A stretch of DNA of 64,000 nucleotides from NCBI GenBank assembly GCA_016787565.1, contig JAEUUG010000013.1, positions 124,001 to 188,000 on the forward strand, read 5' to 3'. Below, piece after piece: positions 25,866-30,178 of the stretch. Every line of letters starts with the position of its first letter. Positions within the stretch are counted from its first letter, which is position 1. This DNA is from Cyclobacteriaceae bacterium. GTDB taxonomy: Bacteria; Bacteroidota; Bacteroidia; Cytophagales; Cyclobacteriaceae. The translations under genes and the position numbers were made by a program. Below the pieces are notes generated by a model. That model was given only the letters and a program-made list of their open reading frames with translations, was not told where the DNA came from and did no database searches.

Positions 25866-27089
25866 ATGAAAAAGATATTCTACCTATTTTCAATCCTCTT
25901 GGTGATTCTCCAAACATCATGCGAGGAAGAATCAAATCCCGAATTCGATGAGAATAATTTCACGGCCATCTTTGATAATAATCAATTCTCAATTACCTAT
26001 AATCCCATCGATGTTAAACAAACGGAAGACGGTGGTTATTTGATTTTAGGCAGCCGAAAACTACCTACACCGCCATCCTCATCACCTCCACTCTATTCAG
26101 GGATCTATATCATGAAGGCTGATAAGTTTGGAAATTTTACGAGTGAAGTTGATGTGGATGCAGCATATGTCAACCCCATTTCGCCCCTCGCTCAGATTGA
26201 TGGGAAATACTATTTCTTCTGCATGCAGGACCTTACTCTACAAACGCAGCTTGTTGAACTCACAGGCAATGGTGAAGTTACAACCATTACCGAAGTGTCG
26301 GGTATTACCTTTCCAACAGCAGCCAGCTACGATCTGGATAGCCGATTGTTTTTGTTGCTGGGATACAATCATGTAGATAAGCAAACTACGTTTTGCCGCG
26401 TTACAACATCCGGTACTATTCAAGGCGCTGTGAATGAGTTTGGCATCGGAGTTGGTGACGATAACATTGATGAGCCTCTATTGAATCATTTTACCCGTAC
26501 CGGCACCAAACTACCCTTTGCTGTGGGTAAAGCCGGAGCACAATTCTACTTCAATGGTTTCTATAATTATACCTTCTCGCTGGTATTCTTTAATCCAAGC
26601 CAGGAAAATCCTGCAGGTGTCGTCCAAGGTCAGCTAGACGAAGGTGGTATGAGCGCAGTACTTCCGTTGGCGGGGAATAAATTTGCGGCATCCAGGTTTA
26701 ACTTCGGTGACAACTATCTGCTGCCAAACGTTCTCTTATCTACAACCGGAATTTCTTCAAGTACCGATCTGGGTGGTTATAGTTTGCCTGAACTTGTTTC
26801 CAATGCGAGGGTAAGAATACTCAGTGCCCTGATCGATACAAAAAAAATATTGATCTACGGCAGTGATTCCCGATCCAAGCAAATTGCACTTCTCTTTTAC
26901 GATGAGTCAACCGGTACATTTATTTCTAGTAAATACCTCGGCTTTTCCAATCCGTTTGAAATTTCTAGCCTATTGCAAACAGCCGATGGTGGACTAGTGG
27001 TTTGTGGCACAACCTATGTGGCGGGGCGGTTCCCACGGATTTGCTTATTCAAGATTTCAAAAGAAGAGCTGGAGAAAAATTCGCGCTAG
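25866..27089 (+). CDS. Hypothetical lipoprotein, beta-propeller-like
   Basis: A 407-residue lipoprotein with lipobox LQTSC followed by EEES, an acidic surface-export-like signal. The body has repeated strand blocks: DVKQTEDGGYLILGSRKL near residue 57 and SSLLQTADGGLVVCGTTYV near the C-terminus. The TxDGGYLILG form is common in Bacteroidota T9SS-associated or propeller proteins. No catalytic motif is recognised. It is probably in an operon with the barrel protein before it. Confidence 0.75.
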   Translation: MKKIFYLFSILLVILQTSCEEESNPEFDENNFTAIFDNNQFSITYNPIDVKQTEDGGYLILGSRKLPTPPSSSPPLYSGIYIMKADKFGNFTSEVDVDAAYVNPISPLAQIDGKYYFFCMQDLTLQTQLVELTGNGEVTTITEVSGITFPTAASYDLDSRLFLLLGYNHVDKQTTFCRVTTSGTIQGAVNEFGIGVGDDNIDEPLLNHFTRTGTKLPFAVGKAGAQFYFNGFYNYTFSLVFFNPSQENPAGVVQGQLDEGGMSAVLPLAGNKFAASRFNFGDNYLLPNVLLSTTGISSSTDLGGYSLPELVSNARVRILSALIDTKKILIYGSDSRSKQIALLFYDESTGTFISSKYLGFSNPFEISSLLQTADGGLVVCGTTYVAGRFPRICLFKISKEELEKNSR

Positions 27090-27168
27090 GGAGAAATTCA
27101 ATTGTCTGATGCAGGCAACTATGCACTCTCATCTTTTTTTTACACCTTGGCAGTGATTCGATTAGGTC

Positions 27169-28191
27169 ATGTATACTATTCAGCCACAGGTAAGCCTTCA
27201 GCCTTTCAATACATTTGGAATTCAGGCCATCGCCCAATACTTCGTTACCATTACCTCGATCGGTGATGTCCAACAACTGATCAAAACTCCACTATTTGGT
27301 AAAGAACGGCATCTGATTTTGGGTGGAGGAAGTAATCTCTTGTTAACGCAGGATTTCAATGGCCTTATCATAAAGAATGAAATCAAGGGTATAGAAATTC
27401 TGAAAGAAATCGATGACACCATTACCCTGAAAGTAGGTGCGGGTGAAAACTGGCACACCTTTGTACTGCATTGTGTTAATCAGGATTGGGGTGGTGTGGA
27501 AAACTTATCGCTTATCCCGGGAACGGTAGGTGCAGCCCCCATGCAAAACATTGGCGCCTATGGTGTGGAGATTAAGGATATCATTGATTCCGTTGAGGTG
27601 GTCAACTTACAGGATGGAACGGTTAGTAACTTTACCAATTACGCCTGCAACTTCGGATACCGGGAAAGTATTTTTAAGCAGAGTCACCGCGACAAGTATC
27701 TTATCTCAAGTATTACTTTAACACTGACTAAAAAAAATCATCGCTTTAACGCCAGCTATGGATCAATCATGGATGTGCTTCGGGACAAGGGTATTGCTGA
27801 ACCATCAGTAAAGGCCATCAGTGATGCGGTTGTACAAATCAGACGAAGCAAGCTACCCGATCCGGCACATATCGGTAATGCTGGTAGCTTTTTTAAAAAT
27901 CCATCGATAAATACAGAGACACTCGAACATCTAAAACTTGACTATCCCAACATACCTTCATTTCCAGGAGAGAAGGGATTGAAAAAGATTTCTGCGGCAT
28001 GGCTAATTGAACAATGCGGATGGAAGGGAAAGACCTTCAACAACATTGGTGTTCATCAACATCAGGCACTCGTTCTGGTTAACTACGGTGGTGGCTCAGG
28101 AAAAAATATCTGGCAACTTGCCATGGACATCCAGGCGAGTGTTAAAGAAAAGTTCAACATCATTCTTCAACCTGAAGTGAATGTGATCTGA
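27169..28191 (+). CDS. murB: UDP-N-acetylmuramate dehydrogenase
   Basis: A 340-residue type I MurB. It reduces UDP-GlcNAc-enolpyruvate to UDP-MurNAc with NADPH and FAD in peptidoglycan synthesis. The FAD-binding part shows LILGGGSNLLLTQDFNGLII and LSLIPGTVGAAPMQNIGAYG. The C-terminal domain has GYRESIFKQSHRDKYLIS, the catalytic region VQIRRSKLPDPAHIGNAGSF, and ends LQPEVNVI with the active-site Glu. It is separated from the preceding lipoprotein gene by 79 bases. Confidence 0.97.
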   Translation: MYTIQPQVSLQPFNTFGIQAIAQYFVTITSIGDVQQLIKTPLFGKERHLILGGGSNLLLTQDFNGLIIKNEIKGIEILKEIDDTITLKVGAGENWHTFVLHCVNQDWGGVENLSLIPGTVGAAPMQNIGAYGVEIKDIIDSVEVVNLQDGTVSNFTNYACNFGYRESIFKQSHRDKYLISSITLTLTKKNHRFNASYGSIMDVLRDKGIAEPSVKAISDAVVQIRRSKLPDPAHIGNAGSFFKNPSINTETLEHLKLDYPNIPSFPGEKGLKKISAAWLIEQCGWKGKTFNNIGVHQHQALVLVNYGGGSGKNIWQLAMDIQASVKEKFNIILQPEVNVI

Positions 28192-28280
28192 GAGAAAATC
28201 GATTCATTAGTTCATCATCATATCACCCTCAAGAGTGATGGGTAAAAAAATCCTAAACGAAAAAATTTTTTGTGTTTTTT

Positions 28281-28311
28281 TTTGTAGATAAATTTTTTGT
28301 TACTACTTTTC
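28281..28311 (+). promoter_or_regulatory. Promoter of the 25-residue Lys/Ala peptide gene
   Basis: TTTG at 28281-28284, an exact 19-base spacer, and TACTTTTC at 28304-28311 (one mismatch to TAnnTTTG). Transcription would begin near 28318, about 23 bases before the ATG at 28341. The surrounding sequence is very T-rich. Confidence 0.68.
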
Positions 28312-28340
28312 GTGTAGTTTAAACATAAATTAATAACGCT

Positions 28341-28418
28341 ATGGCAAAAACAGCGAAGAAGACAGCAAAGAAAGCAGCAAAGAAAACTGCTAAGAAGGCT
28401 GCTAAGAAGAAGAAGTAA
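28341..28418 (+). CDS. 25-residue Lys/Ala/Thr peptide, histone H1-tail-like
   Basis: This short open reading frame encodes 25 residues: 13 Lys, 8 Ala, 3 Thr and the initiator Met, arranged as repeated KKAAKK / KKTAKK units. It starts MAKTAKKTAKKAAKK and ends in a run of four Lys before TAA. Such composition is known from histone H1-like C-terminal tails and bacterial KA-rich nucleoid proteins; here it is the whole protein. It should be a charged, unfolded peptide that binds DNA or RNA. It has its own promoter (28281-28311) and a strong terminator (28446-28480), so it is a complete single-gene unit rather than a decayed remnant. Confidence 0.75.
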   Translation: MAKTAKKTAKKAAKKTAKKAAKKKK

Positions 28419-28445
28419 TTAGGTTAAACCTAACGAAACTTTGCG

Positions 28446-28480
28446 AAGGGAAGTAAATCAGATTTACTTCCCTTTCGTCT
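28446..28480 (+). terminator. Strong terminator after the Lys/Ala peptide gene
   Basis: A perfect 13-base stem, AAGGGAAGTAAAT / ATTTACTTCCCTT, with loop CAG, followed by TCGTCTTTTT. It ends the transcript 28 bases after the stop codon of the 25-residue gene. Confidence 0.9.
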
Positions 28481-28590
28481 TTTTAATAAGACCGTTATTA
28501 TATTCATCCTTGCTATACACATCTTATTAATCACGCCTTTCCCCCTCTTACTTAAACTTTTTCTTTAAGTATTAAGGGTTATTCACTCGG

Positions 28591-28620
28591 TTGCGTAAAT
28601 TTTATATTCTTTTATGTTGT
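28591..28620 (+). promoter_or_regulatory. Possible promoter of the 28678 gene
   Basis: TTG at 28591-28593, a 19-base spacer, and TATGTTGT at 28613-28620 partly match TTTG-N19-TAnnTTTG (weak second half). If it is used, transcription starts near 28627, after an in-frame upstream initiation codon, supporting the ATG at 28678. Confidence 0.4.
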
Positions 28621-28677
28621 GCCTCGCAGAATACACGCGTAACTTTCTGGAACAAAACTTCATTAACCAATTTCCTT

Positions 28678-29013
28678 ATGGCAAAATCTCCTGTCAAACC
28701 CACGGCTAAAACTGCAACAAAAGCCGTAACAGCTTCCAAGAAGAGCAAAGCCGCCACCGCTCCTGTTAACCTTATTGAAAAAGGATGTGAAGAGGCGCTT
28801 AAGAAATTGCAGTCCCTTGGTATTGAACAACAACTCCAAAGTGATCTCTACTGGTGCCTCGGCAGCTATCGTCACGATAAAAATCCTGTCGGTCTTTATG
28901 AAATGGGACAACGAGCCTTAACTGTATTTAAAGCTGAAAAAGAGAAGAAGACAAAGGGCATAACAACGAAAATAATTGCCGACCTTGAAAAAGCCCTGAG
29001 TACAAAAGGCTAG
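28678..29013 (+). CDS. Small protein with Lys/Ala-rich N-terminal tail
   Basis: Start at ATG 28678; an in-frame extension to 28591 is rejected because it lies over the likely promoter and has an unrelated composition. The 111-residue protein has a disordered, basic N-terminus (AKSPVKPTAKTATK, then KKSKAATAP, about residues 2-29). An 80-residue mainly helical domain follows (NLIEKGCEEALKKLQSLGIE, DLYWCLGSYRHDKNPVGLYE, GITTKIIADLEKALS). The tail resembles the 25-residue peptide encoded just upstream, suggesting a nucleic-acid-binding role. The folded domain is not recognised. A terminator follows at 29037. Confidence 0.75.
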   Translation: MAKSPVKPTAKTATKAVTASKKSKAATAPVNLIEKGCEEALKKLQSLGIEQQLQSDLYWCLGSYRHDKNPVGLYEMGQRALTVFKAEKEKKTKGITTKIIADLEKALSTKG

Positions 29014-29036
29014 TTTATTTACCTCTTTTGGTAGGC

Positions 29037-29060
29037 AGGCCGGTGATATCCGGCCTTTTT
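29037..29060 (+). terminator. Rho-independent terminator
   Basis: The 7-base stem AGGCCGG / CCGGCCT with loop TGATAT is followed by a run of T, 23 bases after the stop of the Lys/Ala-tail protein gene. There is no T-run in the other direction, so it probably serves the plus strand only. Confidence 0.88.
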
Positions 29061-29074
29061 TATTATTTCAAACT

Positions 29075-29557
29075 TTAAATCATATGCGTCACATTGGTTA
29101 ACGCTCCATGATAACGCTCAGTATCCACTCCGAACCTTTGTAGGAAATCAACACCTTCATCGGAAGTCAAGCCCTTATGCTCGGCATATGAATTAAAATA
29201 GATAACACGCCTTATCCCCATACTAAAAATTATGCGGGCACAAGAAAGGCACGGAGATAACGTCACGTAAAGCGTAGCCCCATCAACTGAAGTCTTATTC
29301 TTGACGGCATATAGAATGGCATTTTGCTCTGCATGAATAGCAAGTGAGCAACCCCCCTTAGAATCACGCGGACATCCAACCTCAGGCCACTCTTCATCGC
29401 AATTGTGCGTACCGGATGGAGGTCCGTTATAACCAATGGAAATTATCCGGGTGTCTTTTGTTAGTACTGCTCCCACATGGCGTTTTATACAATGGGAACG
29501 CTTGGCAAGGTTTACAGCCAGTTCCATATAAATATCATCAAATGCAGGACGCGTCAT
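29075..29557 (-). CDS. Deoxycytidylate deaminase-like protein
   Basis: A 160-residue cytidine/deoxycytidylate deaminase-family protein. The zinc site is visible: HAEQNAILYAV (HAE, catalytic Glu) and LSPCLSCARIIFSMGIRRV (PCxxC). The N-terminus MTRPAFDDIYMELAVNLAKRS and the IGYNGPPSGTHNCDE segment are typical of dCMP deaminases and ComEB. It would convert dCMP to dUMP, the substrate of ThyA encoded at 2.9 kb. It is a stand-alone gene, convergent with the Lys/Ala-tail gene. Confidence 0.93.
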   Translation of the reverse strand: MTRPAFDDIYMELAVNLAKRSHCIKRHVGAVLTKDTRIISIGYNGPPSGTHNCDEEWPEVGCPRDSKGGCSLAIHAEQNAILYAVKNKTSVDGATLYVTLSPCLSCARIIFSMGIRRVIYFNSYAEHKGLTSDEGVDFLQRFGVDTERYHGALTNVTHMI

Positions 29558-29647
29558 AACCGTAAAAATAGAACACAGAAACTACAATTCAGAATTTGTG
29601 ATGGCAGGTGCCCTAAATTCTGTAATCTATTCTATCTTTAACCGCAT

Positions 29648-30178
29648 ATGAAACCAGTAACCCTGCTCTTACTATTTTGGTTAACGGTATTTCACGCCAC
29701 TGGTCAGGATGCTATCAAGCCACGACCAAGTCCGCTAGCCATAACAACTCTTCGCTACAAAGATGCGTACCTTAAAATCACCTATGGTCAGCCGCATAAA
29801 AACGGAAGAGAAATTTTTGGTAAACTCGTTCCTTACGATGTTGTTTGGCGAACCGGTGCGAATGAGGCTACCGAGCTCACCTGTACGAAAGATATTCTCA
29901 TCAACAACGTATTATTAAAAGCAGGTACCTACTCTCTGTTTTCAATTCCAGGTAAAGAACGATGGACCATTATACTGAACCGTGACCTGGGACTTTGGGG
30001 CGCATACAACTATAATGCTAAGGTGGATGTTTTCAGATTTAATGTTCCGGTCAACTCCATTTCGGAACCTGTCTATGAGGCTTTTACGATAAAAGGTGAG
30101 CAAAAAAATGAACTGGCAGAACTTTTGTTACTCTGGGACAAAACAAAAGTTGTCATACCTATAAAATTCACAAACTGA
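29648..30178 (+). CDS. DUF2911 domain protein
   Basis: A 176-residue secreted protein with a signal peptide (LLLLFWLTVFHATGQ). The DUF2911 signature is clear: LKITYGQPHKNGREIFGKLV, PYDVVWRTGANEATELTCTK, LKAGTYSLFSIPGKERWTII, LNRDLGLWGAYNY. The role of the family is unknown; it is widespread in Bacteroidota. The next gene begins two bases after its stop, so the two are probably one operon. Confidence 0.92.
   Translation: MKPVTLLLLFWLTVFHATGQDAIKPRPSPLAITTLRYKDAYLKITYGQPHKNGREIFGKLVPYDVVWRTGANEATELTCTKDILINNVLLKAGTYSLFSIPGKERWTIILNRDLGLWGAYNYNAKVDVFRFNVPVNSISEPVYEAFTIKGEQKNELAELLLLWDKTKVVIPIKFTN

Follow-up and report, generated by a model that had tools for sequence, protein, structure and literature searches.

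A conserved gene for a free-standing 25-residue Lys/Ala peptide, predicted to act as a histone-like tail, in Cyclobacteriaceae

Studies of basic tails have mostly dealt with tails attached to folded nucleoid proteins, and a gene whose product is tail only would separate charge from fold. A frame of this kind lies in a 64,000-nucleotide stretch of DNA from a Cyclobacteriaceae bacterium (the whole stretch is referred to here as the window), and it raises two questions, namely whether so short a frame is a gene at all and, if so, what its product might do. With such a gene, the effect of a naked polycation on DNA, RNA or polyphosphate could be studied in living cells.

A short frame with its own transcription signals

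The frame occupies 78 bases (28341-28418, plus strand) and its translation, MAKTAKKTAKKAAKKTAKKAAKKKK, comprises 13 Lys, 8 Ala, 3 Thr and 1 Met residues (25 in all), which bears out the earlier note, where a 78-base frame made up only of these four residues had been described. The residues are arranged in [T/A]AKK tetrads, or [TAS]AKK tetrads once orthologues are included, and the peptide thus has the Lys/Ala-rich repetitive basic region of H1-like and Hc2-type proteins. The fraction of Lys, Ala and Thr is 0.96 and that of Lys is 0.52, as against maxima of 0.54 and 0.30, respectively, for any ATG-initiated frame of at least 20 residues in 60 simulated order-2 Markov windows of 64 kb each. (In another Markov run the top value for Lys, Ala and Thr together was 0.50 instead of 0.54.) A chance frame was rejected on these grounds, the composition lying far beyond the Markov maxima. 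Searches of curated family models with the 25-residue peptide returned no Pfam and no NCBIfam match at E up to 1; note that profiles are weak on such short, low-complexity sequence. The peptide has neither a signal sequence nor a hydrophobic stretch, and no acidic or aromatic residue. We considered and rejected a cationic antimicrobial peptide, since there is no export signal or hydrophobic face and the only hydrophobic residues, as read from the sequence, are Met and Ala.

Upstream of the frame is a promoter-like box (28281-28311, plus strand), recognized from the sequence and the orthologue alignment, with TTTG as its −33 element (28281-28284) and TACTTTTC as its −7 element (28304-28311) at a spacing of 19. 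The −33/−7 elements of Bacteroidetes are TTTG and TAHHTTTG according to the available text of PMC6847099, and the box agrees with this consensus save for its last base. A scan with the sigma-70 consensus did not return the box, as expected for a promoter of the Bacteroidetes type. In aligned orthologues the box takes the form TTTTTG-N18/19 followed by TAACTTTT, TACTTTTC or TACCTTTC, so that the promoter that had been proposed, TTTG-N19-box, is as described and is conserved. The short leader that follows (28312-28340, plus strand) ends in AACGCT before the ATG, and this end is kept as ACGCT or GCGCT in the aligned orthologues and in a second copy of the gene in the same genome. In the available account of start contexts in Flavobacterium johnsoniae, A is favourable at −3, −6, −12 and −13; in the window leader, A occupies the −6, −12 and −13 positions. 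At −3 it has G instead of the favourable A, which counts against the explanation of the locus that we favour below.

Downstream, a small hairpin that the earlier note does not list, TTAGG-TTAAA-CCTAA (28419-28433, plus strand), abuts the stop codon and is present in all 13 aligned 25-residue orthologues (displaced by one base in L104); its arms hardly vary, so that the pairing is without proof from covariation. Together with the CTTTGCGA spacer that precedes the terminator, this hairpin makes up a segment (28419-28445) that is almost invariant in the 25-residue orthologues, and that is conserved beyond the needs of a terminator. The intrinsic terminator itself (28446-28487, plus strand) consists of a perfect 13-bp stem (28446-28458 pairing with 28462-28474), a CAG loop and a T-rich tail, CGTCTTTTT. 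Orthologues retain the stem: in the three sequences compared, changes near the loop come in pairs, and one sequence has a single broken pair; a stricter hairpin scan misses the window's own terminator. The 13-bp stem was correctly given in the earlier note, and its distance from the stop codon, stated there as 28 bases, is 27 bases.

Orthologues, neighbours and second copies

The frame lies downstream of murB (27169-28191, plus strand; Pfam MurB_C and FAD_binding_4) and is followed by a gene for a 111-residue protein (28678-29013, plus strand) and by a convergent gene of the dCMP/cytidine deaminase family (29075-29557, minus strand; Pfam PF00383). The order murB, Lys/Ala peptide, 111-residue protein and deaminase recurs in other genera, murB and the deaminase gene serving as anchors of synteny. 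A protein search (E up to 1) over 98 genomes found the 25-residue frame in three, the genome of the window counted; the two others belong to other genera, match at 96% identity and have kept the neighbouring genes. Moreover, in the orthologue alignment the promoter box, leader, frame, hairpin and terminator form a bounded island, with little that aligns beyond it. Frame, promoter box, leader and terminator have thus been retained together, in the same place, in different genera.

To measure constraint we used 25-residue syntenic frames only (19 loci, some from genomes present in two collections, which reduce to 13 distinct frames). The variable columns number 4, 2 and 17 at codon positions 1, 2 and 3 (17 of 23 at third positions; binomial p 8e-5), and pN is 0.037 and pS 0.430, for a dN/dS of about 0.06 (0.059). 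All 13 lysines are invariant, and residues 4, 8, 12, 13 and 16 vary among T, S, A, V, P and K. Selection therefore acts on the amino acids: lysines are kept in the 25-residue orthologues and positions occupied by alanine, threonine and serine drift. This is how conservation looks in a gene that is translated and that carries its own signals for transcription. The earlier note had proposed that the Lys/Ala tail is the whole product of a dedicated unit, and this is well supported by the orthologues with their conserved signals, by purifying selection at the level of the protein and by the second copy with a terminator of its own. The search in relatives that had been suggested there found frame, promoter box and terminator conserved in related genera; far from the frame being lost amid conserved surroundings, it is the frame and its signals that are conserved and the intergenic flanks that are not.

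The same alignment bears on whether the unit is mainly a small RNA, in which the frame would be incidental or secondary, as in a dual-function RNA. Such an RNA would account for a 3' region (TTAGG-N5-CCTAA, CTTTGCGA and the terminator stem) that is more conserved than a plain terminator requires, but within the frame the third codon positions are free to change (pS 0.43) whereas the encoded residues are retained, and the free Lys/Ala frames of other phyla mostly have Shine-Dalgarno matches (among the matches listed). Furthermore, the sole Rfam match at E up to 1 in the interval 27000-30000 is a sub-threshold match to SorX at 28991-29061, outside the unit. We consider a mainly RNA-based unit improbable. 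A gene for RNA only was rejected, given the constraint on amino acids within the frame and the lack of an Rfam match within the unit.

The 111-residue protein has a Lys/Ala-like N-terminal part of 28 residues and a C-terminal part predicted, from its homologues and an AlphaFold2 model, to form four helices. It has 198 homologues, and the best 120 of these are named hypothetical or uncharacterized, bar one stray label. In the AlphaFold2 model (42 aligned sequences; mean pLDDT 72, pTM 0.54) the helices span residues 29-47, 51-67, 71-89 and 97-108, and the N-terminus is of low confidence, with block means of 47-49. Neither Pfam nor NCBIfam gave a match at E up to 1, and no convincing fold relative emerged (best E 0.04 among solved structures and 1.1 in a fold search). 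The murB locus was matched in 59 of 59 relatives, and the genes downstream of murB were compared in the best 30 of the 59. The Lys/Ala frame was found in four of these 30 loci, all four of which also have the 111-residue gene; neither gene was found in the other 26, in nine of which a deaminase gene lies nearby. As judged from these loci, the peptide gene and the 111-residue gene are present or absent as a pair between two old neighbours. That both are gained or lost together between murB and the deaminase gene suggests, without proving, a joint role for the peptide and the 111-residue protein.

The genome of the window also carries a second, 26-residue copy of the peptide gene (L002), which has other neighbours, the same AACGCT-ATG start and a different terminator, and next to which the first frame to exceed 100 residues is convergent. 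Copies at second sites in other genomes (L044, L045, L067 and L089) have in common an upstream element, GTAGTACCTTA, that is absent from L002, and a terminator region, TTGATC...GATCAATGAAATAAAAAAG, is common to L044, L089 and L002. These features suggest that the second-site copies represent an old paralogue with its own regulation.

Two longer proteins of the same genome begin with a start module that resembles the peptide gene at the DNA level. One (L004 1515-1886, G000:C8) joins a Lys/Ala tail to a SWIB domain (PF02201, E 3e-27) and the other (L003 1182-1556, minus strand, G000:C14) is a Lys/Ala- and Pro-rich protein of 125 residues; both share the start context and the Lys/Ala module with the peptide and differ from it in that the tail sits on a SWIB domain or is extended to 125 residues. 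These longer proteins could do the same work as the peptide, which counts against the explanation that we favour. They also provide a possible source for a low-complexity relic, that is, a Lys/Ala module copied from a longer Lys/Ala-tailed gene and fixed by chance. Against a relic, purifying selection is strong (dN/dS 0.06) and the unit has its own conserved promoter box and terminator in several genera, and we consider it very improbable. A protein-database search with a 45-residue Lys/Ala frame of a locus other than that of the window gave six weak rows (best E 0.11). Note that a record labelled Bacteroidetes (L064 413-550) has a 45-residue Lys/Ala frame, MAKKATAKKATAKK..., a longer free tail.

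A predicted polycation and its possible partners

We favour as probable that the gene, conserved and free-standing, encodes a protamine-like free histone tail that binds and condenses DNA (or RNA). The peptide would be made and, as it has no signal sequence or hydrophobic stretch, would stay in the cytoplasm, where its 13 lysines, unopposed by any acidic residue, may neutralise the phosphate of nucleic acid. Its [T/A/S]AKK tetrads would act like the tails of histone H1 and Hc2, without a globular anchor, and the 111-residue neighbour, in which a Lys/Ala-like N-terminus precedes a helical body, could be an anchored partner. That the lysines are kept while length is flexible in a wider set of loci is as expected if charge and spacing count, rather than fold. 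DNA is our first choice of ligand because similar repeats, KPAA peptides, bind DNA in vitro according to the available text of PMC9239181. Membership of a family is not claimed; the peptide would work like a histone tail if this reasoning holds.

Instead of chromosomal DNA, the main partner of the peptide might be RNA, ribosomes or polyphosphate, in which case the polycation would tune condensates or polyphosphate granules. Composition alone gives DNA no preference over RNA or polyphosphate, and tails with Lys/Ala or KPAA repeats are also found at polyphosphate granules, as described for AlgP in the available part of PMC9239181. However, the neighbouring murB and dCMP deaminase genes give no pointer to polyphosphate or ribosomes, and the genome has a separate bTHX-like gene, which speaks against a ribosomal partner; we regard these other partners as rather unlikely, though a serious alternative. 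The ribosomal peptide bTHX itself was rejected as an identity for the peptide. At E up to 1 the Thx profile (bTHX, PF17070) matched three places in the genome, all of them other than the peptide gene, and the best (C11:637736, reading MGKGDKKSKKGKIW...) scored 26.9 bits, below the cut-off of 29.7.

To place the predicted free tail among known systems, we compared it with other short polycations and basic tails. Protamines are Arg-rich short polycations of eukaryotic sperm; the likeness is that of a short polycation that would condense DNA alone, and no kinship is claimed. ScvA, of the Coxiella small cell variant, is about 30 residues long and rich in Arg and Gln rather than Lys and Ala. Compared by description only, ScvA resembles the peptide in being free, very short and highly basic, and differs from it in that it occurs in a pathogen, in one of its developmental forms. 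ScvA is described as a small basic DNA-binding protein (PMC4766238, available text), and the trait that it typifies, a basic peptide encoded on its own by a very short gene, is present here, as known from sequence alone through the gene and its conservation. The available text of PMC2848022 describes lysine-rich pentamers in Hc2 of Chlamydia, and Hc2 and the C-terminal tails of histone H1 share with the peptide their lysine-rich short repeats; in contrast to these tails, the peptides at the loci found here have 18-28 residues in all, are built of tetrads and have no further domain, and the 25-residue peptide has no Pfam match. AlgP and PhaF of Pseudomonas likewise have a disordered Lys/Ala repeat (KPAA). 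According to the same available text (PMC9239181), a fragment of the AlgP tail, like KPAA-repeat peptides, binds DNA in vitro and AlgP acts at polyphosphate granules, but AlgP, unlike the peptide, has a helical N-terminal domain of 124 residues and a far longer tail. In titles and the openings of abstracts, a partial coverage of the literature with few subscription papers, we found no description of free Lys/Ala micropeptide genes.

Distribution in the family and beyond

A strict DNA pattern matched 27 of 196 genomes of the family, in 26 of which the match is a true Lys/Ala frame (the remaining one is not K/A-rich), and the reversed pattern, used as a control, matched none of the 196. The true frames fall in nine of 84 sampled genera; the other 75 have no strict-pattern match, and most sampled genera being without the gene, the peptide is dispensable for nucleoid packing in general, which weighs against the favoured explanation. 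At the level of the class, the strict pattern matched four of 247 genomes, all four of the same family, and none of the 241 genomes of the class outside that family. A looser pattern matched at least 130 of 390 family genomes, partly by chance (among the matches listed, that in G386 has a length not divisible by three, a further point against a conserved coding frame as the favoured explanation has it).

A scan of contigs from named genomes found at least 116 stretches, at least 100 of them with a Lys/Ala frame, and by the labels of the records (sorted by hand from their titles) at least 50 of the frames are from Bacteroidota and at least 50 from others. Among the matches listed, the carriers include Chryseolinea serpens (with an identical peptide), Chryseosolibacter histidini, Ohtaekwangia koreensis, Pseudochryseolinea flava and Chryseotalea sanaruensis, the length of the peptide in Bacteroidota ranges from 18 to 28 residues rather than being fixed at 25, and a terminator-like hairpin lies within 110 nt past the stop codon in 37 of 49 Bacteroidota frames, as against 17 of 980 stretches drawn at random from these loci. 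Of 50 Bacteroidota loci listed, 41 adjoin murB, the 111-residue gene and/or the deaminase gene and nine adjoin none of these. The few records without the usual neighbours include one labelled Cytophagaceae (L135), and the gene may thus occur outside the family too.

The loci without these neighbours also bear on a leader peptide or attenuator that would sense lysyl-tRNA on behalf of a downstream gene. The layout would suit such a leader, in that the frame is short and Lys-rich and that a hairpin and then a gene on the same strand come after it. In the window, however, the downstream gene begins 259 bases past the stop codon (about 880 bases in L009) and behind a terminator, the second copy in the same genome is followed by a convergent frame, and nine of the 50 Bacteroidota loci listed have no murB, 111-residue or deaminase gene adjoining. 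We consider this the least probable of the readings, and rejected an attenuator leader peptide on the grounds that the unit has its own terminator and is not directly followed by a regulated gene within one transcript.

Free Lys/Ala frames such as MAKAAKKPAAKKAAKKPAAKKKK were also found, among the matches listed, in records labelled Hyphomicrobium, Opitutaceae, Verrucomicrobiaceae, Verrucomicrobia, Planctomycetes, Phycisphaerae, Acidobacteria, Chloroflexi, Eisenbacteria and others. Among these non-Bacteroidota matches, 38 of 45 distinct starts have a Shine-Dalgarno match, as against 1427 of 10230 other ATGs of the same loci (Fisher p 8e-26), and a terminator-like hairpin follows 18 of 50 frames, as against 13 of 1000 random stretches (nested starts of L078 being counted twice in both figures). 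In an alternative grouping of 48 non-Bacteroidota loci, with the Patescibacteria records L078 and L120 left out, the Shine-Dalgarno counts are 38 of 42 versus 1383 of 9843 other ATGs, and 46 of 82 ATGGCNAAR sites of the same loci, Lys/Ala frames included, have a match; terminators follow 40 of 52 frames (23 of 1040 random) when L078 and L120 are placed with Bacteroidota and 15 of 47 (8 of 940) in non-Bacteroidota. Note that 35 of 40 of these frames (38 loci) overlap, in GC-rich DNA, a frame of at least 80 residues in another reading frame, and that seven of the 40 end a longer open frame in the same reading frame (L043, L046, L062, L065, L070, L106 and L123), so that their start is less sure. 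Because of these overlaps, the seven at the ends of longer frames and labels of metagenome-assembled genomes that may be wrong, the frames of other phyla are to be taken as candidates.

In the two Patescibacteria records, a Lys/Ala frame (L078 3644-3718; L120 6621-6686) lies directly 3' of a murB (26-27% identical), with sigma70-like promoter boxes and GC-rich terminators, and is followed by a frame that we take to be mraZ. That murB is the shared neighbour in Patescibacteria and Cyclobacteriaceae may or may not be due to chance. We put forward, tentatively and with less assurance than the predicted function of the peptide, that many phyla have repeatedly evolved Lys/Ala "free histone tails" of 18-28 residues as separate genes below the horizon of gene callers, each with its own promoter, start signal and terminator, which would serve as soluble, nucleoid-condensing protamines and which, in two Patescibacteria as in one clade of Cyclobacteriaceae, lie next to murB. 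The window locus suggests that length limits and low-complexity filters probably hide a class of real genes, and Chryseolinea serpens, Ohtaekwangia koreensis and the organisms of the Hyphomicrobium records are named hosts in which such a class could be tested.

An origin in phages was rejected, the viral matches sitting in longer open frames and one of those listed being K/A-rich. The same DNA pattern matched at least 120 stretches of viral contigs, which gave 121 in-frame rows (one stretch gave none), all in frames that are open for at least 15 residues upstream, and the only K/A-rich match among those listed (L221) lies behind 188 open residues. Many phage frames in these contigs (L158-L277) end in repeats such as MMRGGMAKKKK, which are not made up of Lys and Ala only. 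Lastly, two Acidobacteria records (L075 1979-2286 and L125 4276-4580) have two free Lys/Ala frames in tandem, MAKKAKKAAKKKAAKKKK and MAKKAKKAAKKAKKAKKR, separated by about 190 bases.
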